Source: Saccharopolyspora phatthalungensis
GTDB lineage: Bacteria; Actinomycetota; Actinomycetes; Mycobacteriales; Pseudonocardiaceae
Assembly: GCF_014203395.1 (NCBI RefSeq)
Contig: NZ_JACHIW010000001.1
Span: 1,426,001 to 1,490,000, forward strand
DNA length: 64,000 nucleotides
Direction of reading: 5' to 3'
Made by a program: the position numbers and the translations under genes. Under the pieces are notes generated by a model. That model was not told the origin of the DNA, ran no database searches, and saw only the letters and a list, made by a program, of their open reading frames with translations. This document shows, in pieces, positions 1,688-44,020 of this stretch (positions are counted from its first letter, which is position 1; each line of letters begins with the position of its first letter).

Positions 1688-2317
1688 TCAGCCGTGCGGG
1701 CGAGTCGTCCAGTGCCGCATGGCGTGCTCTACCAGCGCGATCAGGGTGCGCTTCGTCGATTCCCGGTCGCGGGCGTCGCACGGCCCGATCGGCACGTTGG
1801 GGCCGATCGCCATCGCCTCGCGGACCTGATCGATCGAATGCAGCATCTGACCGTCGAAACAGTTCACCCCGACCAGATAGGGCAGCCCGCGGTCCTCGAA
1901 GAAGTCGATCGCGGAGAACGAGTCCGCCAACCGCCGGGTGTCCACCAGCACGACCGCGCCGATGGCGCCCCGCACCAGGTCGTCCCACATGAACCAGAAC
2001 CGCTGCTGGCCGGGCGTGCCGAACAGGTACAGGATCAGATCGGAGGCCAGCGAGATCCGGCCGAAGTCCATCGCGACCGTGGTGGTGGTCTTGTTCGGCG
2101 TCGCACCCAGGTCGTCGACGCCTCGGCTGGCCTCCGTCATCACCGCCTCGGTGGTCAACGGCACGATCTCCGACACCGACCCGACGAACGTCGTCTTCCC
2201 GACCCCGAACCCGCCCGCGACCACGATCTTCGCCGAGGTGGACGTGGTGCCGCCCCGGTTGAGGGTCTGCGGCTGCACGGAGCCGAGCTGGGGCGCGCTA
2301 TAGCCGACGGAGTCCAC
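1688..2317 (-). CDS. cvnD: conservon GTPase (CvnD-like, ATP/GTP-binding)
   Basis: A 209-residue Ras-like small GTPase. The P-loop GGFGVGKTT is at residues 35-43 and the switch II/G3 element appears as FGTPGQ at 99-104. The G4 motif, normally NKxD, is replaced by VNCFD at 151-155, as is usual in this MglA-like subfamily. It is the last gene of a four-gene conservon (3391-6366, 2896-3336, 2298-2888, this). Its ATG at 2317 lies 20 nt inside the DUF742 gene, which implies translational coupling. Conservon products form a membrane-associated signalling complex likened to eukaryotic G-protein systems. What this one senses cannot be read from sequence. Confidence 0.92.
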   Translation of the reverse strand: MDSVGYSAPQLGSVQPQTLNRGGTTSTSAKIVVAGGFGVGKTTFVGSVSEIVPLTTEAVMTEASRGVDDLGATPNKTTTTVAMDFGRISLASDLILYLFGTPGQQRFWFMWDDLVRGAIGAVVLVDTRRLADSFSAIDFFEDRGLPYLVGVNCFDGQMLHSIDQVREAMAIGPNVPIGPCDARDRESTKRTLIALVEHAMRHWTTRPHG

Positions 2318-2888
2318 TCAAAACCCTTTCCATCAACACCATGTGTGGTGCGCTGCCGCTTTCGCTCACCGTCTGGTGCACGGTGATCAACCCCAGTTCG
2401 GCCATGTCGGCCAACAACACCCGGGCCACTCCGATCGGCACTGACAGCAGCGCCCCCACTTCCGCGACCGATCTGGGATGTTGGCACAGCTCGGCGATCG
2501 ACTGGTGCTCCAGCCGGATCGGCGCGCCGGGCCGGTACACCTCGCCGGTGGAAACCAGGGTTTCCAGCTCCAGCTGGTAGTTCGACCTGGTGCGCCCGCC
2601 GGTCCAGGTGTAGGACCGGATGCTGGACGCCGCCGGTGCGTCCGGTTCCGCCGACTCGACGTGGTCGTCCGAATAGGACTCCTCGTACTCCTCGTACTGC
2701 TCGTCGAACCGTTCGTCGTCGTGCTCGGGGTATTCCTCCGGCGGCGGCTCGTCCAGCTCTTCGTAAAGCTCGCGCTTGCGCTTGCGCCCGCTGCCGAAGG
2801 CGAACCCGTGGACGACCTCGGCGAAGCTGTCGTCTCCGGAGTTGTCCCGTCTTCGGCCCTGACGTGGGTTATCCGAGCGTCTACTCAT
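2298..2888 (-). CDS. cvnC: conservon DUF742 protein (CvnC-like)
   Basis: A 196-residue protein. The C-terminal 100 residues are the DUF742 winged-helix-like domain, including SIAELCQHPRSVAEVGALL and DMAELGLI. The N-terminus is unusual: a basic segment (GRKRKRE near 34-40) followed by a very acidic Glu/Asp/Tyr run at roughly 42-78. DUF742 proteins of conservons bridge the roadblock protein and the GTPase. The gene sits between cvnB and cvnD and overlaps cvnD by 20 nt. The acidic extension may be lineage-specific. Confidence 0.9.
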   Translation of the reverse strand: MSRRSDNPRQGRRRDNSGDDSFAEVVHGFAFGSGRKRKRELYEELDEPPPEEYPEHDDERFDEQYEEYEESYSDDHVESAEPDAPAASSIRSYTWTGGRTRSNYQLELETLVSTGEVYRPGAPIRLEHQSIAELCQHPRSVAEVGALLSVPIGVARVLLADMAELGLITVHQTVSESGSAPHMVLMERVLSGLRRL

Positions 2889-2895
2889 CGCATCC

Positions 2896-3336
2896 TCACA
2901 CCAGTTGGCCGGTGAACGCGTTCGACGTTCCCTGCAACTGCGACCGAATCTCCGGTGTAAGCATCTGGCCGACGCGCTCCACGAGCATGGTCATCTCGTA
3001 GGCGATCAGCCCCATGTCGCACTGCGGGGCGGCGAGCACGGTCAGGCAGGAGCCATCGCTGATGCCCATCTGCAGCAGCGTGCCGCGTTCCATCTCCACG
3101 ATGGTCTGGACTACGCGCCCGGCCTCGAAGCACTTCGCCGAGCCCTGGGTAAGGCTCAGCAGCCCCGAGGCGACCGCGGCCAGCTGGTCGGCCCGGTCCC
3201 TGGGCAGGGTCGCCGACGCGGTCAGCACCAAGCCATCGGCGGACACCACGATCGCGTGTGCCACACCGGCCACGCGCTCGGTGAAGTCCGTGATCAACCA
3301 GCCGAACCTGCGGGAAATCGTCTCCTGAGCAGTCAT
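2896..3336 (-). CDS. cvnB: conservon roadblock/LC7 protein (CvnB-like)
   Basis: A 146-residue roadblock/LC7 domain protein. The N-terminal half contains the typical pattern GVAHAIVVSADGLVLTASA, then a helix (DRADQLAAVASGLLSL) and a strand carrying VVQTIVEMERGTLLQ. In conservons this protein is the regulatory partner of the GTPase, analogous to MglB. It lies 7 bp upstream of cvnC and 54 bp downstream of the kinase gene, all on the minus strand, consistent with one transcript starting before 6366. The start is ATG 3336, preceded by AGGAGG-like sequence. Confidence 0.92.
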   Translation of the reverse strand: MTAQETISRRFGWLITDFTERVAGVAHAIVVSADGLVLTASATLPRDRADQLAAVASGLLSLTQGSAKCFEAGRVVQTIVEMERGTLLQMGISDGSCLTVLAAPQCDMGLIAYEMTMLVERVGQMLTPEIRSQLQGTSNAFTGQLV

Positions 3337-3390
3337 GCAACCTCCTGTTCGTCGCCGAGGTGATCACGCCTTCGCGCGGCAGCCTTCATG

Positions 3391-6366
3391 TCAGTCCTCG
3401 TCGGTTGCTCGATGCCGACCGCGACTGATACCGCTTTGGAAGTCTGCCAGCCGCCCGCGCAGTTGGTCCGCGTCCCGCTGGAACCGCTTGGATTCCCGTG
3501 ACTCGGAGTTCGCCACGCTGCCCGGGACCAGGTGCGCTTTGGGGGTTCGGCGCGGCAAACCGGCCTGGGTGAACGTCGCCGACTGCGGGTTCGCCGCGGC
3601 CTCGGCCGCCTCGCGCGCCCTGTCCGCGGCGAAAGTCCAGGAATCCGCGTCGGAAGTCTCCGCGATCCACGACTGCGACGTTGCGGGCTCCGAGCTCCAG
3701 CCGTCCGATCCGGCCGGTTCCGATGGCCACGGGTCCTGCCCGGCGGATTCCTGCATCCACGAGCCCGCGCCGGTTGGTTCCGCCGGGGTCTCCGCCGACG
3801 CATCGACCGACCGGCCGAACTGGACGCCGTTTTGGGCGAGGCTCCGGCTGATGTCCTCCGGGCTGCGGGCGGGTGCGCCGGCCGCCGGTTCCGCCGCTTG
3901 GTTCCCGCGCGGCACCCGCTGCGGCAGCCCGGACGAGGTGAGCGCTGCCCCCTCCTGCGGGTCGCCCGGCAGGAAGTCCGAACGCTGCGGCGGTCCCGCC
4001 TCCCCGGCCGGGTCGCTTTCCGTGCCGGGCCAGCCGAATTCGCCGGTGTCGGCCCGCGAATGCAGATACGGGTTCGCGCTGGCCGGCTGGAACCACTGGG
4101 TGGAGACCTCGTTGAAGATCGGCGACGCCGCCGCCGGTCGTTCCGCAGGCGGTTCGGCACCCGGCCAGTCGACGCCGAAGTCCGCGGGCGCCGTGCGCGG
4201 CTGCTGCGGGATGCCGAGCGGCGCGTCAAACAGGTGCTCCGTCGGCGAGTCCTCCCGCTCGGCGCTACCGGGCTCGAAGAGGTTCGCCGGGGTCGGCTCC
4301 TGCCAGGGCATGCTCTCCTGCGCCGCAGCAGGCTGCTCGCCACGGTGTGGTAGCGGCCTGGAAGTCGCCAGGTCGGTGTGCACGTGCCCGTTGCGCTGGC
4401 TTGCCTGCGTCGACGACGGCCGCAACACCGTCCCGGACTCCGACTGGACTGCGTGCTCGACCGGGATCATCACCGTCGCCCGCACGCCCTCGACGTCCGG
4501 CCCGCCGTGCAGCTCGACACCTACGCCGTGGCGCACCGCTAAGCGGCCAGCGACGAACAGCCCCATGCGGCGCGAGCTGGCCAGGTCGTCCTCGTCCACC
4601 TGGGCCAGTTGTTCGTTTGCGCGGGCGAGTTCCTGGTCCCCCATGCCGATGCCCTGGTCCAGCACGTCGATCACCACGGTGCCATCGCCGGACTGGTAGC
4701 TGGACACCGTGACGGTGGTGTCCGGGGCAGAGAAATTCGCCGCGTTGTCCAACAACTCGGCGACAAGCCGCACCAGGTCGCTGGCGGTGTGCCCGCGCAA
4801 TTTCACCGTCGGCGGCGGCTGCACCACGACCCGCGGGTACTGCTCGATCTCGGACACCGCGGCGCGCAGCACGTCCGCGAGGTCGGTGGGCTGGGTGAAG
4901 CGCCGCGCCAGGTCGCTGCCGGAGAGGACCATCAGGTTCTCGTTGTTGCGCCGCATCCGGGTCGCCAGGTGGTCCAGCTGGAACAACCGCGCGAGCTGGT
5001 CCGGGTCCTCCTCGTCCTGCTCCAGCTGCTCGAACAGCCGCAACTGCCGTTCCAGCAGGCTCTGGCTGCGCCGGGAAATGCTGACGAACACGTCGCTGTA
5101 GCCGCGACGCAGGTCCGCCTGCTCCACCGCCAGCCGCAACGCCTGCTGGTTCACCTCGTCGAAGGCACGGGCCAGCTGCCCCACCTCGTCCGTGGTGTCC
5201 ACCGGGAACGGCTCCACGACCGCGTCGGCGGTGTTGCCCTGCCGGACGCTGGCCACGGCCGCCGGGAGTTCGTACTCGGCGGCGTCCAGCGCGCTGCTGC
5301 GCAGGTCTCGCAAGGAGCCGAGCAGCTGCCGGGCGATCGCGATGATGATCGCGGCGGCGACGATCAGCGCGGACAGCAGCAGCACCGAGTCCCAACCGGC
5401 GACGTTGCTGGCCTCGTCTTCCAGCCGCGCGGCGGTGGACCGCACGTCGGCGGCGAGGTCGTCGTGCCCTTGGTCGATCAATGCGACCGCGCGGTCGGTA
5501 CCGGAGTTCCAGTCCTCGCGCCGCACCGAATACTCGCCGGTGTAACGGTTGTCGGTGCTCTCGGCCATGATCGTGTCGAGCATCTGGTTGCGGTTCCTGA
5601 TCTCCGGAGCAACCATCGTCCGGTCCAGCCGCTGCTGCCAGTACGCGGCAACGGTGGACCGAGCATCACCGATCTTGCTGAGCAGGCGGGCCCGCGAGCC
5701 GTTCAGGTTTTCCATCGCGACGGAACTGAGGCTGCCGTCGCTCAGCCCGGTCAGCACCCAGGCCTGCTGCAGCCGCACCTCCTCGGTCAGCCCCAGCATG
5801 TCCTGCAGTGCGGTCGCCGTGGGGGCCAGACTGCGGTCGGCGACGCTGCTGGTCAGCGCGCGGTCCAGGGCGAGCACCGAGTTGATCACGCGGGTGTAGG
5901 CGTCGATCGCCCGCTCGGGGCTGATCCGGCGGTCGCGCACCTGCTGGCGAAGCTGCGCGAGACCGTCCAACCCCGGCCGCAGCTCGCGGTAACGATCGGA
6001 AACGACCCCGGCGTAGGCGTCGGTCGAGGCGAAGATCCCTTCGAGGTCGGCGGCCGCCCGGTCCACCGCGGTCACCTGCTCGTCGACCGCGTCGAGGCCG
6101 CGGTCGCCGGCCAGGAACTCCACCGAGCGGGCCCGCTCGTGCTGGACGCCGGCGATCAGCGGCTCGATCCGGTCGACGGCGTCGACCACCTGCGCGACCC
6201 GGTCGTACTCGGCGGCCTGCTCGACCTGCCACCGGATCTGCCCGACACCGAGGGTGATCGCGAAGATCACCGGCACCAGCACGACCGCGGCCAGCTTGGT
6301 CGGGAGCGACCAGTTGCGCCACTGCACCAGGGCGTCGCGAGCGCGCCCGAAGCCGCCCGCGCTCAC
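3391..6366 (-). CDS. cvnA: conservon sensor histidine kinase-like protein (CvnA-like) with NIT sensor domain
   Basis: A 991-residue membrane sensor. A first TM helix lies near residues 24-43, then an extracytoplasmic nitrate/nitrite-sensing (NIT)-type helical region to about 320, a second TM near 325-345, a HAMP linker, a dimerisation helix and a HATPase domain. The N box ELLDNAANFS is near 540, G1 DQGIGM near 572 and the G2-like MGLFVAGRLA soon after. A roughly 340-residue Pro/Ala/Ser/Glu-rich tail rich in Trp-containing repeats follows, with no recognisable domain. No response-regulator gene is adjacent, as is normal for conservons, where signal is thought to pass to the roadblock/GTPase module. 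Confidence 0.9.
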   Translation of the reverse strand: MSAGGFGRARDALVQWRNWSLPTKLAAVVLVPVIFAITLGVGQIRWQVEQAAEYDRVAQVVDAVDRIEPLIAGVQHERARSVEFLAGDRGLDAVDEQVTAVDRAAADLEGIFASTDAYAGVVSDRYRELRPGLDGLAQLRQQVRDRRISPERAIDAYTRVINSVLALDRALTSSVADRSLAPTATALQDMLGLTEEVRLQQAWVLTGLSDGSLSSVAMENLNGSRARLLSKIGDARSTVAAYWQQRLDRTMVAPEIRNRNQMLDTIMAESTDNRYTGEYSVRREDWNSGTDRAVALIDQGHDDLAADVRSTAARLEDEASNVAGWDSVLLLSALIVAAAIIIAIARQLLGSLRDLRSSALDAAEYELPAAVASVRQGNTADAVVEPFPVDTTDEVGQLARAFDEVNQQALRLAVEQADLRRGYSDVFVSISRRSQSLLERQLRLFEQLEQDEEDPDQLARLFQLDHLATRMRRNNENLMVLSGSDLARRFTQPTDLADVLRAAVSEIEQYPRVVVQPPPTVKLRGHTASDLVRLVAELLDNAANFSAPDTTVTVSSYQSGDGTVVIDVLDQGIGMGDQELARANEQLAQVDEDDLASSRRMGLFVAGRLAVRHGVGVELHGGPDVEGVRATVMIPVEHAVQSESGTVLRPSSTQASQRNGHVHTDLATSRPLPHRGEQPAAAQESMPWQEPTPANLFEPGSAEREDSPTEHLFDAPLGIPQQPRTAPADFGVDWPGAEPPAERPAAASPIFNEVSTQWFQPASANPYLHSRADTGEFGWPGTESDPAGEAGPPQRSDFLPGDPQEGAALTSSGLPQRVPRGNQAAEPAAGAPARSPEDISRSLAQNGVQFGRSVDASAETPAEPTGAGSWMQESAGQDPWPSEPAGSDGWSSEPATSQSWIAETSDADSWTFAADRAREAAEAAANPQSATFTQAGLPRRTPKAHLVPGSVANSESRESKRFQRDADQLRGRLADFQSGISRGRHRATDED

Positions 6367-20213: not shown

Positions 20214-20996
20214 TCAGCGCGGAATCTTCAGCACCTGGCCGACGTAGATCAGGTTGGGGTCGGCAATGCCGTTGACCCGTGCGATCTCGTGCCAGTCGAC
20301 GCCGAGCCGCTGCCCGATCTCGGAGAGTATGTCGCCGGGCTGCACGACGTAGGTCTCGTCCTTCGGCGGCGGGGGCGGCGCACCGGTCCCGGTGAGCACT
20401 TCCAGCGGCACCATCGAGACGTTGAGGTCGGTGTCGCCGCCGACCCCCGGAACCTGCCCGTCGGAGGCGTGCTGGTGCATCACCACCCGGTCGGTGAGGA
20501 AGCCGGGTTCACCGGGCGGGCGGCCGTAGTGCGCGACCCACAGGAACACCCCGGGGTCGACCCAGGTCTCCGGCGCGAGCTTGCTCTGGAACCAGGACGC
20601 CGAGGCGTACACCATCACCTCGTGCCGACCGGTGTGCCCGCGAAGCGCGTCGATGAATCCCTTGATCCAGGCGCCTAGGTTCGGCGCCTCGGTCTCCATG
20701 TCCAGGCACGGCGGCAGATTCCCGGCCGCGCCGGAGTTCAGCCGCGCCAGCTGGGCGGCGAAATCGGCCGCTTCCTGCTGCGGGGAATTCGTGTCCGGGC
20801 GGGCGAAGTGGTAGAGCCCGGTGACCATTCCCGCGTTGCGGGCGCCGGCCAGCTGGGCGTCCAGCACCGGGCTGACGTATCCGATGCCTTCGGTTGCCTT
20901 GATGTAGGTGAAGACGTATCCGGCGCCGCGAACCGCTCCCCAGTCCGGCTCCCCCTGATACCGCGCGACGTCGATGCCGGGAATTCGCTCGGCCAT
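20214..20996 (-). CDS. GH25 lysozyme-like muramidase with C-terminal LysM
   Basis: A 260-residue protein. The GH25 domain begins almost at the N-terminus (IPGIDVARYQGEPDW) with the DVxxYQ motif, then YIKATEG, GLYHFARPD and PPCLDMETEA carrying catalytic-site acids. A Pro-rich linker (GAPPPPPKDE) leads to one LysM repeat, YVVQPGDILSEIGQRLG to the end. The start is ATG 20996, behind AGGGAG. No signal peptide is visible, which is odd for a wall hydrolase, so it may be released by lysis, use an alternative route, or have phage ancestry. It should cut peptidoglycan between MurNAc and GlcNAc. Confidence 0.88.
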   Translation of the reverse strand: MAERIPGIDVARYQGEPDWGAVRGAGYVFTYIKATEGIGYVSPVLDAQLAGARNAGMVTGLYHFARPDTNSPQQEAADFAAQLARLNSGAAGNLPPCLDMETEAPNLGAWIKGFIDALRGHTGRHEVMVYASASWFQSKLAPETWVDPGVFLWVAHYGRPPGEPGFLTDRVVMHQHASDGQVPGVGGDTDLNVSMVPLEVLTGTGAPPPPPKDETYVVQPGDILSEIGQRLGVDWHEIARVNGIADPNLIYVGQVLKIPR

Positions 20997-21371
20997 GATC
21001 AACTCCCTGACTTTGGCCTTCTGCTCGTGCCAAAGTATCGAAATCGAGCAACCGAGCACTCCCGCCGTTCAGGTCAAGATCATAACCCGATTGGTTGATA
21101 CCCGAGTGGACCGCAATCGATTAAGGAAGCGCCGAATTAGCTACATCAAGTTTACATTCGATCACAATGCGCCCTATTCGGCGCAGCTCGCACTCACTCG
21201 ATCCGCTGGTCGCAGGCGCCGACCGCGAGAGGCGAAGCAGAGCAGGTCACGCGGTTGCCAACGGGGGAAAATCGACGGTGGAGGCAACCCACCCGAGAGC
21301 CGGACGTCTAGAGAACAAAAGAACAATTACCGACGACCCCGCCGTGTGGACGGGGACGGGAGGTGGTCACC
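20997..21371. other. 375-bp divergent intergenic region
   Basis: This A/T-richer spacer between the lysozyme and DUF4232 genes should contain both promoters. No gene is supported and no strong palindrome stands out. The GGGAGG at 21358-21363 is the ribosome site that fixes the next gene's start at GTG 21372. Confidence 0.5.
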
Positions 21372-24724: not shown

Positions 24725-24985
24725 ATGGCGGGCGTGGAAGAGGTTCGCGCAGGCATTGCCTTGGCCAACCAAAAGATGCAGGAAGGCATCGCCGCCTTGC
24801 AACAGACCAACCTCGTGCTGGAAGAGGCGCAGGCGGCCCTGGTCACCGCCACCCAGGGCAGCGGCCAGGAGGAAATGCAGCACGCGCACGGCATGCTCGC
24901 CGAGGTGATGCAGACGATCAGCGGCGTGCAGGGCTTGCTAGGCGCCACGATCAGCTCCACCGAGGGCTACGCGGGTCGGCTGTAG
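24725..24985 (+). CDS. small helical-hairpin protein, Esx-sized, no WXG
   Basis: An 86-residue protein from ATG 24725 with GGGGAGG about 12 bp upstream. It is almost entirely helical, with two heptad-like helices (roughly 3-42 and 50-80) joined by a polar turn containing QGSGQEE near residues 44-50. Length and layout match WXG100/Esx proteins, but there is no Trp at all and no WXG. It resembles small actinobacterial DUF families found beside FtsK-like ATPases (recollection). It is followed by a second protein of similar size and then the ATPase, so it is a candidate substrate or partner of that ATPase. Confidence 0.7.
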   Translation: MAGVEEVRAGIALANQKMQEGIAALQQTNLVLEEAQAALVTATQGSGQEEMQHAHGMLAEVMQTISGVQGLLGATISSTEGYAGRL

Positions 24986-25089
24986 CGAGCTCTTGCCGGA
25001 CTCGTTTCGCGCGGCGGCGCGAGTCGCGGAACCTCACACGCGTCAAGGACAAAGATCAAACCGACTTCAAGGACGGGCTCGGTAGCACC

Positions 25090-25341
25090 GTGTCGGCACT
25101 CGACGAACTGATCCAGATGCTGCGCCTCGTCGAGGAACACCTGGAAAAAGCGGGTGTGCACCTCGTCACCAGCCGCACGGCCCTGGCCGAGGCGGAGCAG
25201 GCGCTGGTGAAGCTCGACCCGGACCACCCCGAGACCGTGGTGCCGCCGGGCCTCCATCGCGCGGACGACCAGATCGAGCGAACGCAGGGCATGATCGAGC
25301 ACATCCTGGATACGGTGCGCGACTTCGTCACCCGCCTCTAG
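25090..25341 (+). CDS. second small helical-hairpin protein
   Basis: About 83 residues if GTG 25090 is the start. No other ATG, GTG or TTG lies in frame between the previous stop and this GTG, although the frame stays open further upstream. AAGGACGGG lies some 15-20 bp upstream, farther than ideal. The protein has helix 1 (SALDELIQMLRLVEEHLEKAG and onward), a turn with DPDHPETVVPPG, and helix 2 (ADDQIERTQGMIEHILDTVR). The pairing of two Esx-sized hairpins recalls EsxA/EsxB heterodimers, though without the WXG motif. Function unknown; likely works with the 24725 product and the ATPase. Confidence 0.6.
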   Translation: MSALDELIQMLRLVEEHLEKAGVHLVTSRTALAEAEQALVKLDPDHPETVVPPGLHRADDQIERTQGMIEHILDTVRDFVTRL

Positions 25342-25478
25342 GACCTGCCCGACTTTCCGGTATTCGGCGCTCAAACGCGCAGTATTCGGCATCGCGCAGC
25401 GGTGCACCAGAAGTCTGCCCGGTTCCTCGTCGAGTGGTACTTTGATCACGGGCAGTAACACGGGTTCCGAGGTGGGAC

Positions 25479-28304
25479 GTGGGTAAACGCAACGAACGGC
25501 GAAGTCGGATCGAAGTAGCCTTCGAGCGCCTGCGAACCAGCATCGCCGCCGCGCTCGGCGCGGCCGAGAACGAACACGACCGCGTCCTCGCCGAATGCGC
25601 GCAGCAGGAGTTCGCGCTGCGCATCGCCCAGAGCGGGGTGGCCGCCGCGGAGCACGAGCCCGCCGAGATCGCCGACCCCGACGACCCGGTGTTCCAGGCC
25701 GCGATGCGGGAAGCGCTGCGGGACCGGGCGGAGATCTACGCCGAGTGGACCACGCAGGGCCCCGAACAGCTCACCCGGCTCGCGGAGGCGGCCGCGCCCG
25801 GCCCCGCCGGGCTCCCGTGGCCGGAATGGCTCGGCCAGATCGGCTCCCAGGACGCCGCCGCGCCACCCCCGGGCCTGTGGCGGATCGGCACCGCGACCGT
25901 CCCGGATTCGCCGGAACCGCAACCTTTTCCGGCCGCGATCCCGCTGGTGGACGAGTCGCACCTGCGGGTCATCACCGACGACACCCCCGACTCCGCCGAA
26001 ACCCTGGTGCAGAACCTGCTGCTGCGGCTGCTCAGCTACTTTCAGCCCGGCCTGGTGCGCATCCACGTGTGGGACGTCGCGCAGCTGGCCGGGACCCTGC
26101 CGGGGCTGTACCCGCTGACCCGTGCGGGCCTGCTCACCGCGCACGATCCGACCAGGCTGGACGAGATGCTCGAAGGGCTCTCCGACCACATCCGGCGGAT
26201 TCACACCAGCTCGCTGGTCGGCGGTCACACCTCGCTGCGGTCGCTGGCCGAGGAGAACGGGCACCGCTCGGAACCGTGGCGCGTCGCAGTGCTGTTCGGC
26301 AACGGCGAACCCTTGCGCGAGGAGCAGCAGCAACAGCTCCAGCGGATCGCACGCAACGGCCTGGCCTGCGGCATCCAGCTGATCGTCGTGGACCTATCGC
26401 TGACGGTGAACTGCGCCATCGAGTCCATCCGGCTGCTCGGCGGCGACCGGGCGCGCACCAGCATGACCGGCCCGGAAGCCGTGGTGCAGCTAGACGAATC
26501 CCCGTCGCGCAATGAGGTCACTAAGGCGTGCACGGCGATCGCGGAAGCGTTCCTCGCCCGCCGCGCCCGGGTGCGGACCTTCGACGACCTGGTGCCCGAC
26601 CGGCTGTGGACGCACCGTTCGACGTCCGGACTGCAGGCGCCGGTCGGGTTCGCCGAGGGCGAGCCGGTGTGGATCACCCTCGGCGATGGCAGCCCGCACA
26701 CCCTGATCGGCGGTCCGAGCGGCTCGGGGAAGACGAACTTCCTCTACGGCATGCTCGGCGGGCTCGCGGCCCGCTACTCCCCCGACGAGCTGGAGCTGTA
26801 CCTGCTGGACTTCAAGGAAGGCGTGTCGTTCGCCCAGTTCACCCCGGGACGCCGGGACCCGAGCTGGCTGCCGCACGCCCAGCTGGTGGGGGTGAACGTC
26901 AACACCGACCGCGAATTCGGGCTGGCGCTGCTGCGCTTCCTGGCCGACGAGATGCGGCGGCGGGCGGAGATCGCCAAGCAGCACGAGGTCACCAAGCTGG
27001 AGGAGCTGCGCGCCGAGGACCCGAGCGGCCGATGGCCCCGGATCGTCGCGGTGATCGACGAGTTCCAGTACCTGTTCGCCGAGCGCGATCCGGTGACCGC
27101 ACAGGCCACCACGCTGTTGGAAGACGTCGCGCGGCGCGGCCGTTCGCAGGGCATCCACCTGGTGCTGGCCAGCCAGGACGTGTCCGGGATCGAGGCGTTC
27201 TGGGGCAAGCCGGCGATCTTCGAGCAATTCATCCTGCGGATCGCGTTGCCCAAGGCCCGGCGGGTGCTGGCCGAACAGAACCCGGCGGCGTTGGAACTTC
27301 CGCGCTGGCACGCGGTGATCAACCACGAGTCGGGGGTCAAGCACGGCAACGAGATTGCGCGGATCCCGGACGCGACCGCGAAGAACACCTTCGACGCCCT
27401 GCAATCGAGACTATGGGACCAGCGCGACAAGAGCTTGCCGCCGCCGCGCTTGTTCGACGGTTCGAACCTGCCCAATCTGTCTACATTGGATGATTACACC
27501 AGGCTGCGCGCACCCGTGGTGGTGCCGAAGGTCCTGCTGGGGCAGATCATCGACGTCAACGGCACGGCCGCCGCGGTGCGGCTCGTCCGGTCGCCGGGGC
27601 GCAACATCGCGGTGATCGGCTCGGTTTTGGCGGACGCGACCAGCGTGCTGGGGACCGCGGCGCTTTCCCTTGCGCGCCAATACGAACCGGGCACCATCAA
27701 ATTCACCATCGCCAGCCTGCTGGACGACGCCGACGACGATGCCCGCGGCGTGTTCGAAGCACTCGGCAACGACGAACACGACGTCGAGCTGGTCGGCCTG
27801 GACGGCATCGAGGCCGCGCTGGCCTCGGCAACCGAGGCGATCGACCAACGGTCCGGCGCGGATCTGCCGCACTGCTTGGTCCTCTACGCCGCCGACGCGG
27901 CGCACACGACGTTGGAACGAAAAGACCCCACCACCATGGTCAGCGGGCTGGACCACCTGCGGAAGATCCTCAAGCAGGGCCCGGAGCTGCGGGTGCACGT
28001 GATCGGCTGGTGGCGCAGCGTGCAGCGGGTGAAGAACACCCTCGGCATGGGACCGGTCGACGACATCGGGGCGTGGGTCGCCTTCGACGTGCACGGCCAG
28101 GAATTGGCCACCTTCGCGGCCGGGCAGATGGTCACCTGGTCACCGCGAGCGCGTCGCGGCTTGTTCTTCGACCGGGCGGTGCATTCCCGCCCCGAGGTGA
28201 TCCTGCCGTTCGACCTCGGTGACCAGGCCAAACCGGTGCCCTCCGTGCCGTTGCAGCGGGCGGCCGACGGGCTGTCCGATATCCGGGAGGAAGCCGGTGA
28301 CTGA
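25479..28304 (+). CDS. FtsK/SpoIIIE-type ATPase with EccC-like multi-domain layout
   Basis: A 941-residue soluble protein starting at GTG 25479, behind GAGGTGGG. Residues 1-130 are charged and helical. A P-loop-less ATPase-like domain follows at roughly 160-300 (TLVQNLLLRLLSYF, WRVAVLFGNGEPL). The central FtsK domain has Walker A GGPSGSGKTN near 411, YLLDFKEGVSFAQF, Walker B IVAVIDEFQYLF near 520-530 and the sensor-like LASQDVSG. A third domain near 690-870 has the strand-loop NIAVIGSVLADATS where a P-loop would be but lacks GKT. Three stacked ATPase folds are the hallmark of type VII EccC, yet no TM helices are present. It may pump DNA or protein; the neighbours favour a type VII-like role. 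Confidence 0.8.
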   Translation: MGKRNERRSRIEVAFERLRTSIAAALGAAENEHDRVLAECAQQEFALRIAQSGVAAAEHEPAEIADPDDPVFQAAMREALRDRAEIYAEWTTQGPEQLTRLAEAAAPGPAGLPWPEWLGQIGSQDAAAPPPGLWRIGTATVPDSPEPQPFPAAIPLVDESHLRVITDDTPDSAETLVQNLLLRLLSYFQPGLVRIHVWDVAQLAGTLPGLYPLTRAGLLTAHDPTRLDEMLEGLSDHIRRIHTSSLVGGHTSLRSLAEENGHRSEPWRVAVLFGNGEPLREEQQQQLQRIARNGLACGIQLIVVDLSLTVNCAIESIRLLGGDRARTSMTGPEAVVQLDESPSRNEVTKACTAIAEAFLARRARVRTFDDLVPDRLWTHRSTSGLQAPVGFAEGEPVWITLGDGSPHTLIGGPSGSGKTNFLYGMLGGLAARYSPDELELYLLDFKEGVSFAQFTPGRRDPSWLPHAQLVGVNVNTDREFGLALLRFLADEMRRRAEIAKQHEVTKLEELRAEDPSGRWPRIVAVIDEFQYLFAERDPVTAQATTLLEDVARRGRSQGIHLVLASQDVSGIEAFWGKPAIFEQFILRIALPKARRVLAEQNPAALELPRWHAVINHESGVKHGNEIARIPDATAKNTFDALQSRLWDQRDKSLPPPRLFDGSNLPNLSTLDDYTRLRAPVVVPKVLLGQIIDVNGTAAAVRLVRSPGRNIAVIGSVLADATSVLGTAALSLARQYEPGTIKFTIASLLDDADDDARGVFEALGNDEHDVELVGLDGIEAALASATEAIDQRSGADLPHCLVLYAADAAHTTLERKDPTTMVSGLDHLRKILKQGPELRVHVIGWWRSVQRVKNTLGMGPVDDIGAWVAFDVHGQELATFAAGQMVTWSPRARRGLFFDRAVHSRPEVILPFDLGDQAKPVPSVPLQRAADGLSDIREEAGD

Positions 28305-28689
28305 CCAGGTTCCGGCATCGGAGCGGTACAAGGAGATCGCCGCGCTGGCCACCACGGCCGCGCAGCAACTGCGTCGGCACGAGCGCGAGCGGGCCGGCGA
28401 GTTGGGCGAGGCGGTCGCGGCGGGTCGGCAGCGCCGGGAGGCGGCCGACGAGCAGCGCAAGCAGGTCGTCGAGGACGTGCGCAAGCGGTGGAACGCCGCG
28501 ATGGAAGCGCTGTGGGACGAGCGGTGGATGCAGGTCAAGGCCATGCCCGAACCGGACCGCTCGGCCGCACCGTCCACTCCGGACGCTTCTCGTCGGGATG
28601 TTCAAGAAGCCTTCATGGCGCTCTACAAATCGTTGGAGAAGACCCGCTTCGCCGCGAACCTCTTGTCCCGCCGCAAAAAGGAGTCGTGA
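28297..28689 (+). CDS. coiled-coil protein at the end of the ATPase operon
   Basis: A 130-residue protein from GTG 28297, whose start overlaps the ATPase stop by 8 nt, so translation is coupled. It is rich in Arg, Glu and Ala (RHERERAGELGEAVAAGRQR, KQVVEDVRKRWNAAMEALW) and should form a long helix or coiled coil. The C-terminal 35 residues form another helix (DVQEAFMALYKSLEKTRFAA) with a basic end. No signal peptide. Function unknown; the overlap makes an accessory or adaptor role for the ATPase likely. Confidence 0.7.
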   Translation: MTDQVPASERYKEIAALATTAAQQLRRHERERAGELGEAVAAGRQRREAADEQRKQVVEDVRKRWNAAMEALWDERWMQVKAMPEPDRSAAPSTPDASRRDVQEAFMALYKSLEKTRFAANLLSRRKKES

Positions 28690-42292: not shown

Positions 42293-44020
42293 TCAGAACA
42301 GGAAATAGCGCTGGGCCATCGGGACTTCCGAGACCGGGTGCGGTTCGACGCGCTCGCCGTCGATGTCCACCGCGAAGTTGTCCGGGTCGACCCGGATGTC
42401 CGGAGTGGCGTCGTTGTGGACCATGTCGGCTTTGCCGGTCGCGCGGGTGTTTTCGACCGCGACCAGCCCCGAGCTCAGCTGAAACTGCTCCGGCAGCTGG
42501 GCGTCCAGCGCCACCGGCGCCACGAAGAACACGCTGCTCGCCGCCGCTGCGCGCGGCTGCGCCCCGAAACTCGGCCGCGCGATGTAGGGCTGGGGCGTCG
42601 GGATCGACGCGTTCGCATCGCCCATCGCCGCCCACGCCGCGAACCCGCCCTTGAGCACGATGTGCGGCCGGACCCCGAAGAACTTGGGCTCCCACAGCAC
42701 CAGATCCGCCATCTTGCCGACCTCGACGGAACCGACGTGCTTTGCGATGCCGTGCGCGATCGCCGGGTTGATCGTGTACTTCGCGACGTAGCGCTGCGCC
42801 CGGTGGTTATCGGCCCGTCCGTCGCCGGGCAGCGCGCCCCGGCGGCGCTTCATCACGTGCGCGGTCTGCCAGGTGCGCATGATGACCTCGCCGATTCGGC
42901 CCATCGCCTGCGCGTCCGAGCTCATCATCGAGATCGCGCCGAGGTCGTGCAGGACGTCCTCGGCCGCGATGGTGGACGGCCGGATGCGGCTCTCGGCGAA
43001 GGCCAGGTCCTCGGGCACCGACGGGTTGAGGTGGTGGCAGACCAGCACCATGTCGAGGTGCTCGTCGATGGTGTTGACGGTGTGCGGCCGGGTCGGGTTG
43101 GTCGAGGAGGGCAGCACGTTGGGCTGGGAGGCGAGCCGGATGATGTCCGGCGCGTGCCCGCCGCCGGCGCCTTCGACGTGGAACGCGCTGATGGAACGGC
43201 CGTTGATCGCCGCCAGCGTGGACTCGTAGAACCCGGCCTCGTTGAGCGTGTCGGCGTGCAGCGCGACCTGGACGCCGGATTCCTCGGCGACCCGCAGCGC
43301 GCTGTCGAGCGCCGCCGGGGTCGCGCCCCAGTCCTCGTGGATCTTGAACCCGCCGGCCCCGGCCCGCAGTTGCTCCCGCAGCGCCTCGCCGCGCATTGTG
43401 CTGCCCTTGCCCAGCAGCAGGACGTTGACCGGCATGAAGTCCAGCGCCCGCATGACCATCCGCAGGTTCCAGGCACCGGGAGTGACCGTGGTCGCCTTGC
43501 TGCCCTCGCCCGGACCGGTGCCGCCGCCGATCAGCGTGGTCAGGCCGGAGGCCAGCGCCGTCTCGACCTCCTGCGGGCAGATGAAGTGCACGTGGGAATC
43601 GATGCCACCGGCCGTGAGGATCTTGCCGTTGCCGGCGATGACCTCGGTGGACGGCCCGATCACGAGCGTGCCGTCCACGTCGTCGACGGCGCTGGGGTTG
43701 CCAGCCTTGCCGATGCCGACGATGTGGCCGTCGCGGATGCCGACATCGGCCTTGATCACGCCCCAGTGGTCCAGGATCACCGCGCCGGTGATCACCACGT
43801 CGGGCGTCGCTTCGGCGCGGGTCGCGGCCGACTGGCCCATCGATTCGCGGATGACCTTGCCGCCGCCGAACACCGCCTCGTCGCCGGAGCCGGCCGGGCC
43901 CTGGCTGCGGTCCTCGGTGACCTCGATCAGCAGATCGGTGTCGGCCAGCCGGATCCGGTCGCCGGTCGTCGGGCCGAACAGCTCGACGTAGTGGGGCCGG
44001 TCAATGGACGATGCGCTCAT
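42293..44020 (-). CDS. ureC: urease alpha subunit
   Basis: A 575-residue catalytic subunit, near the usual 570. The nickel ligand pair is in [15 protein letters not shown], the lysine to be carbamylated in [13 protein letters not shown], further ligands in [13 protein letters not shown], and the flap/catalytic His in [16 protein letters not shown]. All are intact, so the enzyme should be active. It hydrolyses urea to ammonia and carbamate in the cytoplasm. Its ATG (44020) is 20 nt inside ureB, consistent with coupled translation of the structural subunits. Confidence 0.96.

Follow-up and report, generated by a model that had tools for sequence, protein, structure and literature searches.

In the 64,000-nt stretch of Saccharopolyspora phatthalungensis DNA analysed here (contig NZ_JACHIW010000001.1; hereafter the window, whose positions give all coordinates), four genes encode two small helical hairpin proteins, an ATPase and a coiled-coil partner (Table 1), and we consider it rather probable that together they form a type VII-like motor, chromosomally encoded, for the translocation or assembly of hairpin-tagged proteins. 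Sequence comparison favours the type VII-like motor, with export inferred. The type VII-like assignment is supported because EccC is the solved structure nearest to the ATPase by sequence, the alignment between the two is colinear, hairpin genes are linked to the ATPase gene, distant homologues have WXG100-like neighbours, and hairpins of the same kind cap toxins. An earlier reading made from the sequence alone had described two Esx-sized hairpins, a 941-residue ATPase and a coiled-coil gene that shares 8 nt with the ATPase gene, all on one strand, and its coordinates are confirmed, including an overlap of exactly 8 nt. It had gone on to propose a reduced or alternative type VII-like module; that proposal stands, with the amendments that the motor is not an EccC orthologue and that a membrane anchor may sit in the coiled-coil partner.

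Domains and relatives of the ATPase

By Pfam, the ATPase contains one FtsK_SpoIIIE domain (residues 379-569); its score against the NCBIfam model EccCa/TIGR03924 is 100.3 bits, far below the equivalog cut-off of 509 bits. The best PDB match of a 56-sequence profile of the ATPase was EccC (4nh0, E 3.8e-29), with FtsK at E 1.3e-8. The profile comparison with EccC that the sequence-only reading had suggested was made with HHalign, using an EccC profile of 26 EccC-type sequences from relatives: with a 14-row family alignment, residues 149-856 aligned to EccC 214-1003 (Prob 99.9, E 6.9e-36), and with a 56-row alignment, residues 88-858 aligned to EccC 138-1005 (Prob 99.3). The alignment is colinear with the DUF, D1 and D2 of EccC in order, and neither the transmembrane (TM) region nor D3 of EccC found a counterpart in the ATPase. 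Within the family, D0 resembles both D1 (96%) and D2 (90%); column-shuffled controls against EccC remained below 1%. These profile-level results support three ATPase-like domains in the ATPase, the outer two lacking P-loops, as had been read from the sequence. The DUF of EccC is itself described as a degenerate ATPase domain in passages of PMC11154593.

The single intact P-loop that had been placed near residue 411 is the Walker A motif of the middle domain, in which G412, G415, G417, K418, T419 and N420 are invariant in 56/56 aligned homologues; the Asp-Glu of the Walker B motif (IDEF, residues 526-529) is equally invariant (56/56). A Micromonosporaceae-like genome (G050) has a second family paralogue, L055, that has lost Walker A; the counterpart of L055 in another genome, G253, is L102. 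The earlier claim that the ATPase has no TM helices is also supported: of 79 homologues scanned for hydropathy, 64 showed no TM stretch, while the other 15 and the window ATPase (residues 296-314) each showed one, all lying inside ATPase-like domains. In the window ATPase and in 13 of those 15 homologues this stretch corresponds to the first-domain strand GIxLIxVD, which we interpret as buried rather than as a TM helix. No N-terminal TM stretch was found by hydropathy in the window ATPase or in any of the 79.

When 46 motor domains were placed on a tree, the family and the distant rows L286-L289 formed a clade of their own (95/96), and both the EccC D1 clade (100/97) and the FtsK clade (100/100) were separate from it. 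By this phylogeny, the motor is not an EccC orthologue; it also stands apart from FtsK, although the deep split has support of only 91/75.

Hairpin proteins and hairpin-capped toxins

Both hairpin genes are coding, because differences among relatives (the same genus and up to three neighbouring genera) are distributed over codon positions 1/2/3 as.28/.22/.49 for hairpin 1 (24 relatives) and.28/.22/.50 for hairpin 2 (23 relatives). The test matters for hairpin 2 because a GC-frame score favoured an antisense open reading frame (ORF) lying over it (24967-25461, minus strand), a trap for gene callers. The start of hairpin 2 was chosen by its homologues, and the open frame extends further upstream.

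HHalign identifies the two hairpins as paralogues (96%, with controls no higher than 0.2%). In a non-redundant set of 41 hairpins, 40 have Gly45 and 39 have Ser/Thr46, and none has a Trp at positions 40-47. As the sequence-only reading had said of the two small proteins, the WXG motif is missing: WxG occurs in 0/72 hairpins. The C-terminal Yxxx[D/E] export motif is likewise found in 0/72, which is weak evidence because the same pattern is present in only 7 of 33 proteins collected as WXG100, 30 of which were kept as real. Against these 30 WXG100 proteins of relatives, the hairpins aligned gaplessly and in register, with Gly45 on the Gly of WxG, at a probability of 63% at best (reversed control 3.8%; ten shuffles at most 1.3%). 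The hairpins thus share with WXG100 proteins (PF06013; passages of PMC3935865) their length, a gapless register, the turn Gly and the tandem gene pair, but differ in lacking WxG throughout and, in the case of the window hairpins, in falling below PF06013 detection by Pfam. A further family comes into view through its position: the only above-cut-off match to DUF6244 (PF19757) in 197 genomes of the class is a small ORF 0.9 kb downstream of one family ATPase paralogue in G253, although the window hairpins themselves have no DUF6244 match at E<1. The term DUF6244 was absent from the open literature searched.

Hairpins were also sought away from the module, with the hairpin 1 profile in the window genome and 40 relatives and then in 90 family genomes, and with the hairpin 2 profile in 41 genomes. 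We examined 38 places, namely 20 stretches holding 24 of the first 27 hits off the ATPase, 17 further stretches picked mainly for long or tandem frames, and L355, a choice that favours fusions, so that the counts are not a frequency. At 13 of the 38, an uninterrupted ORF joins an N-terminal hairpin to a DddA-like (11) or EndoU (2) domain, at one (L308) such a hairpin-toxin ORF is interrupted, and 10 have C-terminal hairpins; the rest are free hairpins, partial hits or places where nothing was called. The DddA-like domain was recognised by Pfam in L310, L311 (where the match covers just positions 43-108 of 137), L319, L321 and L354, and the EndoU domain in L353 and L355; the six further DddA-like fusions, in genomes of other genera, were found with a local hidden Markov model (HMM) built from four Pfam-confirmed fusions. 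Imm1 was found by Pfam beside all three loci scanned (L310, L319 and L321) and by a local HMM beside L362, L364, L365, L368, L369 and L372, though not beside L366. Two of the DddA-like hairpin ORFs, L310 and the partial L311, are in the window genome. What is new here, at the level of sequence profiles, is that the N-terminal domains of DddA-like toxins and of EndoU toxins in this bacterial family are also found by the hairpin profiles. When a single toxin hairpin was searched against a database, only 3 proteins came back, so single-sequence searches miss most toxin hairpins.

In L308, L319 and L321, a free hairpin gene stands directly upstream of the hairpin-toxin ORF, repeating the hairpin 1-hairpin 2 order of the window. 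The free hairpin of L308 is 56% identical to hairpin 1 (48/86) and that of L321 29% (25/86), and in L319 and L321 the toxin itself starts with a sequence resembling the beginning of hairpin 2. The L308 locus lies in the window genome (C1:1283500-1289000), where the toxin gene that follows the free hairpin is apparently interrupted.

Twelve proteins have the hairpin at the C-terminus (L312, L313, L314, L315, L316, L322, L324, L360, L361 and L367), mostly after a Thr/Pro-rich linker; HExxH is visible by eye in 7 of the 12, and the three scanned (L312, L315 and L322) gave no Pfam match. In 11 of the 12 genes, GGAGG precedes an in-frame ATG or GTG by 4-10 nt, as though a nested start also yielded the C-terminal hairpin by itself.

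Conservation, partner gene and neighbourhood

The window protein shares 79-90% identity with its ten best ATPase homologues, nine of which come from organisms named Saccharopolyspora; the ATPase of Saccharopolyspora erythraea is 77% identical. A full-length or nearly full-length ATPase is present in 22/22 genomes of the genus, the window genome included. A survey of gene order had been suggested by the sequence-only reading; across other Pseudonocardiaceae genera, one or two hairpin genes, the ATPase and the coiled-coil gene stay together and the flanking genes change. Our named loci are the best 80 listed by a scan with the family alignment, 79 of which have a readable ATPase ORF. In 71 of these 79, the strand that carries the ATPase also has a hairpin no more than 1.5 kb away; of the 8 without a hairpin by HMM, 2 are matches that begin at a contig end, 1 is an ORF that is probably over-extended, and 5 are Actinoplanes-type paralogues. 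Of the 197 genomes sampled from the class, 17 are hairpin-positive (E<1e-5), all within the 23 that are ATPase-positive (E<1e-40), an overlap that is not an independent statistic since most of these genomes come from one family. A phylum-wide search scored 2 candidates per genome and was not used for distribution.

A partner ORF was called at the 3' end of the ATPase gene in 77 of the 79 loci, that of L183 being doubtful because the ATPase ORF there is over-extended. By hydropathy, 37 of the 77 partners have TM segments, all in Micromonosporaceae, Glycomyces, Actinoallomurus and relatives, and those of Micromonosporaceae and Glycomyces end in 2-3 C-terminal TM helices. The 40 TM-less partners belong to Pseudonocardiaceae and close kin, except L183 (Micromonospora) and one metagenome-assembled genome named only to class. 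The coiled-coil partner, with these predicted helices in sister lineages, may thus provide the membrane anchor.

Outside this range, the window ATPase matched 2 plasmid records by tblastn at E<1e-30, and a Caballeronia protein used as query added three more; all five distant plasmid homologues examined adjoin small hairpin or WXG100-like proteins. On a Rhodococcus pseudokoreensis plasmid, the hairpin HMM matches beside the ATPase homologue (2e-19), in a locus that also has Hsp70, DnaJ-TPR-TM, GrpE and a coiled coil with one C-terminal TM. The Caballeronia ATPase homologue (family HMM E 6.6e-127) has a partner that passes PF06013 (30.8 against a cut-off of 27.3 bits); the partners in Helicobacter (24.0 bits), Deinococcus (21.6 and 23.3 bits) and the second Rhodococcus (17.5 bits) are below that cut-off. 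The Helicobacter homologue also adjoins a colicin-DNase/WHH nuclease and a SUKH immunity gene. Chaperone-type genes accompany other distant branches as well, with Hsp70 and J-domain/TPR/TM genes at L056-L058, a J/TPR-like gene at L096, and adjacent Hsp70, DnaJ-TPR and GrpE genes at L293.

Of 80 neighbour clusters found in at least 4 loci, 30 were scanned, and these are metabolic, regulatory, transport, Clp or SecA-like, or without recognised function. Micromonosporaceae loci have a gene of ~300 aa without a Pfam match between hairpin and ATPase (L142:8995-9978; cluster in 23 loci), and a SecA-like gene lies at most 10 kb from the ATPase in a cluster of 8 loci (L158:16148-18556). In the window, a GH25 muramidase with LysM (20214-21059, minus strand) has counterparts near the module in 7 of 20 related stretches (cluster c4). 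Elsewhere in the window, an Rfam match to RF02514 (5' ureB small RNA; 66 bits, 43558-43850) is antisense to a 575-aa gene that we take to be urease-like, and is probably conserved coding sequence; a large sensor-kinase-like gene with three small genes (1688-6366, minus strand) presumably resembles a 'conservon'.

Table 1. Module features and their positions in the window
Feature	Position	Strand	Description
Hairpin 1	24725-24985	+	ATG start, 86 aa; WXG100-like without Trp; QGS turn at residues 44-46
Hairpin 2	25090-25341	+	GTG start, 83 aa; paralogue of hairpin 1
ATPase	25479-28304	+	GTG start, 941 aa; three FtsK/EccC-like domains (profile-supported), Walker A/B in middle one only
Walker A, ATPase middle domain	26709-26738	+	GGPSGSGKTN, residues 411-420
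Coiled-coil partner	28297-28689	+	GTG start, 130 aa; basic tail, no TM

Type VII-like motor or another machine

Consistent with a type VII-like origin, the module has likenesses to two described groups. EccC/EssC (T7SSa-T7SSj of the type VII secretion systems, T7SS; passages of PMC11217815 and PMC11154593) gives the best PDB and NCBIfam matches and has, in the same order as the ATPase, a degenerate DUF-like domain, an active D1 and a degenerate D2; the ATPase differs in having no evident TM region and no D3, in its separate clade and in scoring 100 against 509 bits. The solo-WXG triple ATPase of Zhang et al. 2012 (as given in passages of PMC3482391) appears alike in its three FtsK-type domains with the middle one active and its solo hairpin partner. 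Compared through named homologues only, our family has three domains with an active middle one at profile level and a partner that is WXG100-like but Trp-less; it differs in being chromosomal and genus-wide in Actinomycetes, and in its Trp-less hairpin pairs, coiled-coil partner and toxin fusions. Footnote 6 of Table 1 in that paper notes the three-domain architecture in other phyla and that such proteins appear mobile, which fits the five plasmid homologues with hairpin or WXG100-like neighbours and, in particular, the Caballeronia plasmid homologue (a beta-proteobacterium, WXG100 neighbour). Because this footnote anticipates the architecture, the module is not a wholly new kind. All new types in the 2024 T7SS-variant survey hold a canonical ATPase and WXG100, with no WXG100 located in the cluster for T7SSi, according to passages of PMC11217815, and 'Pseudonocardi-' and 'Micromonospora' are absent from its main text. 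No description of the actinomycete module or of a hairpin-DddA link was recognised in the open literature searched.

Under the type VII-like reading, hairpin 1 and hairpin 2 (or the N-terminal hairpin of a toxin) would pair like EsxA/EsxB, and docking of the pair on the ATPase would lead to hexamer formation and ATP hydrolysis. The coiled-coil partner would tether the ATPase ring to the membrane, and hairpin-tagged effectors would be threaded out or passed to an exporter. In EccC, the third ATPase domain binds the EsxB C-terminus (passages of PMC6954902); because D3 and the C-terminal tail are absent here, substrate recognition would have to differ from that of ESX-1, possibly operating via the paired hairpins themselves. 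One could envision, more tentatively, an unnamed actinomycete type VII subtype with a soluble EccC-core motor, a coiled-coil adaptor (membrane-anchored or peripheral), a Trp-less hairpin code on DddA-like and EndoU toxins and free hairpins as co-export partners, serving interbacterial antagonism.

Several observations weigh against the type VII-like motor. As a single domain, D0 matches EccC D2 (85%) more strongly than it does the EccC DUF (8.5%), which makes its assignment ambiguous; with the 56-row alignment, D0 alone reaches 5.5% and D2 alone 43% against EccC, and D2 matches D1 within the family at only 13.8%. The hairpin-WXG100 match, at best the probability given above, falls to 13% with a 32-row hairpin 1 alignment, and hairpin 2 gives no signal against WXG100 (3.4%, reversed 2.8%). 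Toxin hairpins show similar, low and mixed identity to hairpins 1 and 2, those of L321 and L354 being weak matches. A pattern search gives no standard Walker A in the Deinococcus homologue, and in the Helicobacter homologue only D0-D1 is matched. By hydropathy, no called Pseudonocardiaceae coiled-coil partner has a TM segment. Neither EccB, EccD, EccE nor mycosin was found among 10 window neighbours or the 30 scanned clusters, and no toxin gene was recognised among those 10 neighbours. Finally, canonical EccC is above cut-off in 26 of 31 genomes (the window genome and 30 relatives) and WXG100 is present in 30 of the 31, so that these systems could export the hairpin toxins.

That last point leads to the alternative that survives best, although we consider it unlikely: the canonical ESX of the same cell exports the hairpin toxins, and the module shares ancestry only or works in the cytosol as an ATPase that loads hairpin proteins or controls their quality, a role with which the Hsp70, J/TPR and GrpE genes beside some distant branches would agree. 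The toxin hairpins speak against it, since the 41-row hairpin model gives those of L310, L311 and L319 24-34 bits and the WXG100 model gives them no more than 2.5, L321 being undecided (5.5 against 3.9 bits); moreover, two genomes without the module, G023 and G029, also have no hairpin match. Less likely again is a non-secreting intracellular machine, in which the hairpins and the coiled-coil protein would regulate an ATPase that remodels a housekeeping target. Presence throughout the genus, mostly metabolic neighbours and the TM-less Pseudonocardiaceae module suit such a machine, but the TM-bearing coiled-coil partners of sister lineages and the toxin fusions of the same hairpin type do not.

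The sequence-only reading had named a plasmid-transfer or chromosome-related pump as its rival, and this has been weakened to the point where we regard a DNA pump for chromosome segregation or plasmid transfer as very improbable. It can draw on the FtsK/SpoIIIE domain, on the homologues on plasmids and on a deep branch grouping the ATPase family with FtsK (91/75 with ten FtsK rows; 96/91 in a smaller tree with a single FtsK row). Against these stand the three stacked ATPase-like domains with colinear EccC similarity, the hairpin partners, the hairpin or WXG100-like neighbours of the plasmid homologues themselves, and the scanned neighbourhoods, in which no conjugation, phage or T7SS gene was found among the 30 clusters and no transfer gene among the 10 window neighbours or the 30 cluster representatives. 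A kinship with SffA/SmeA of Streptomyces sporulation was considered and not adopted, no sequence comparison having been made. A defence system was rejected, PADLOC having given just FtsK/HerA-domain similarity (SspH, mad8), as was a phage origin, with 11 phage records matched, the longest match covering 42% of the ATPase, and no phage genes in the scanned neighbourhoods.

If the type VII-like reading is true, a type VII motor can act as a soluble ring whose membrane part is supplied in trans, and a WXG100-like tag can lose its Trp without ceasing to mark toxins. The module also points to a possible route for the DddA-like deaminases of actinomycetes. What DUF6244 does, and what a widespread, unnamed 'FtsK/SpoIIIE domain-containing' gene does, becomes testable, as does a toxin-handling role for the module, through a hairpin type common to DNA-deaminase and nuclease toxins.

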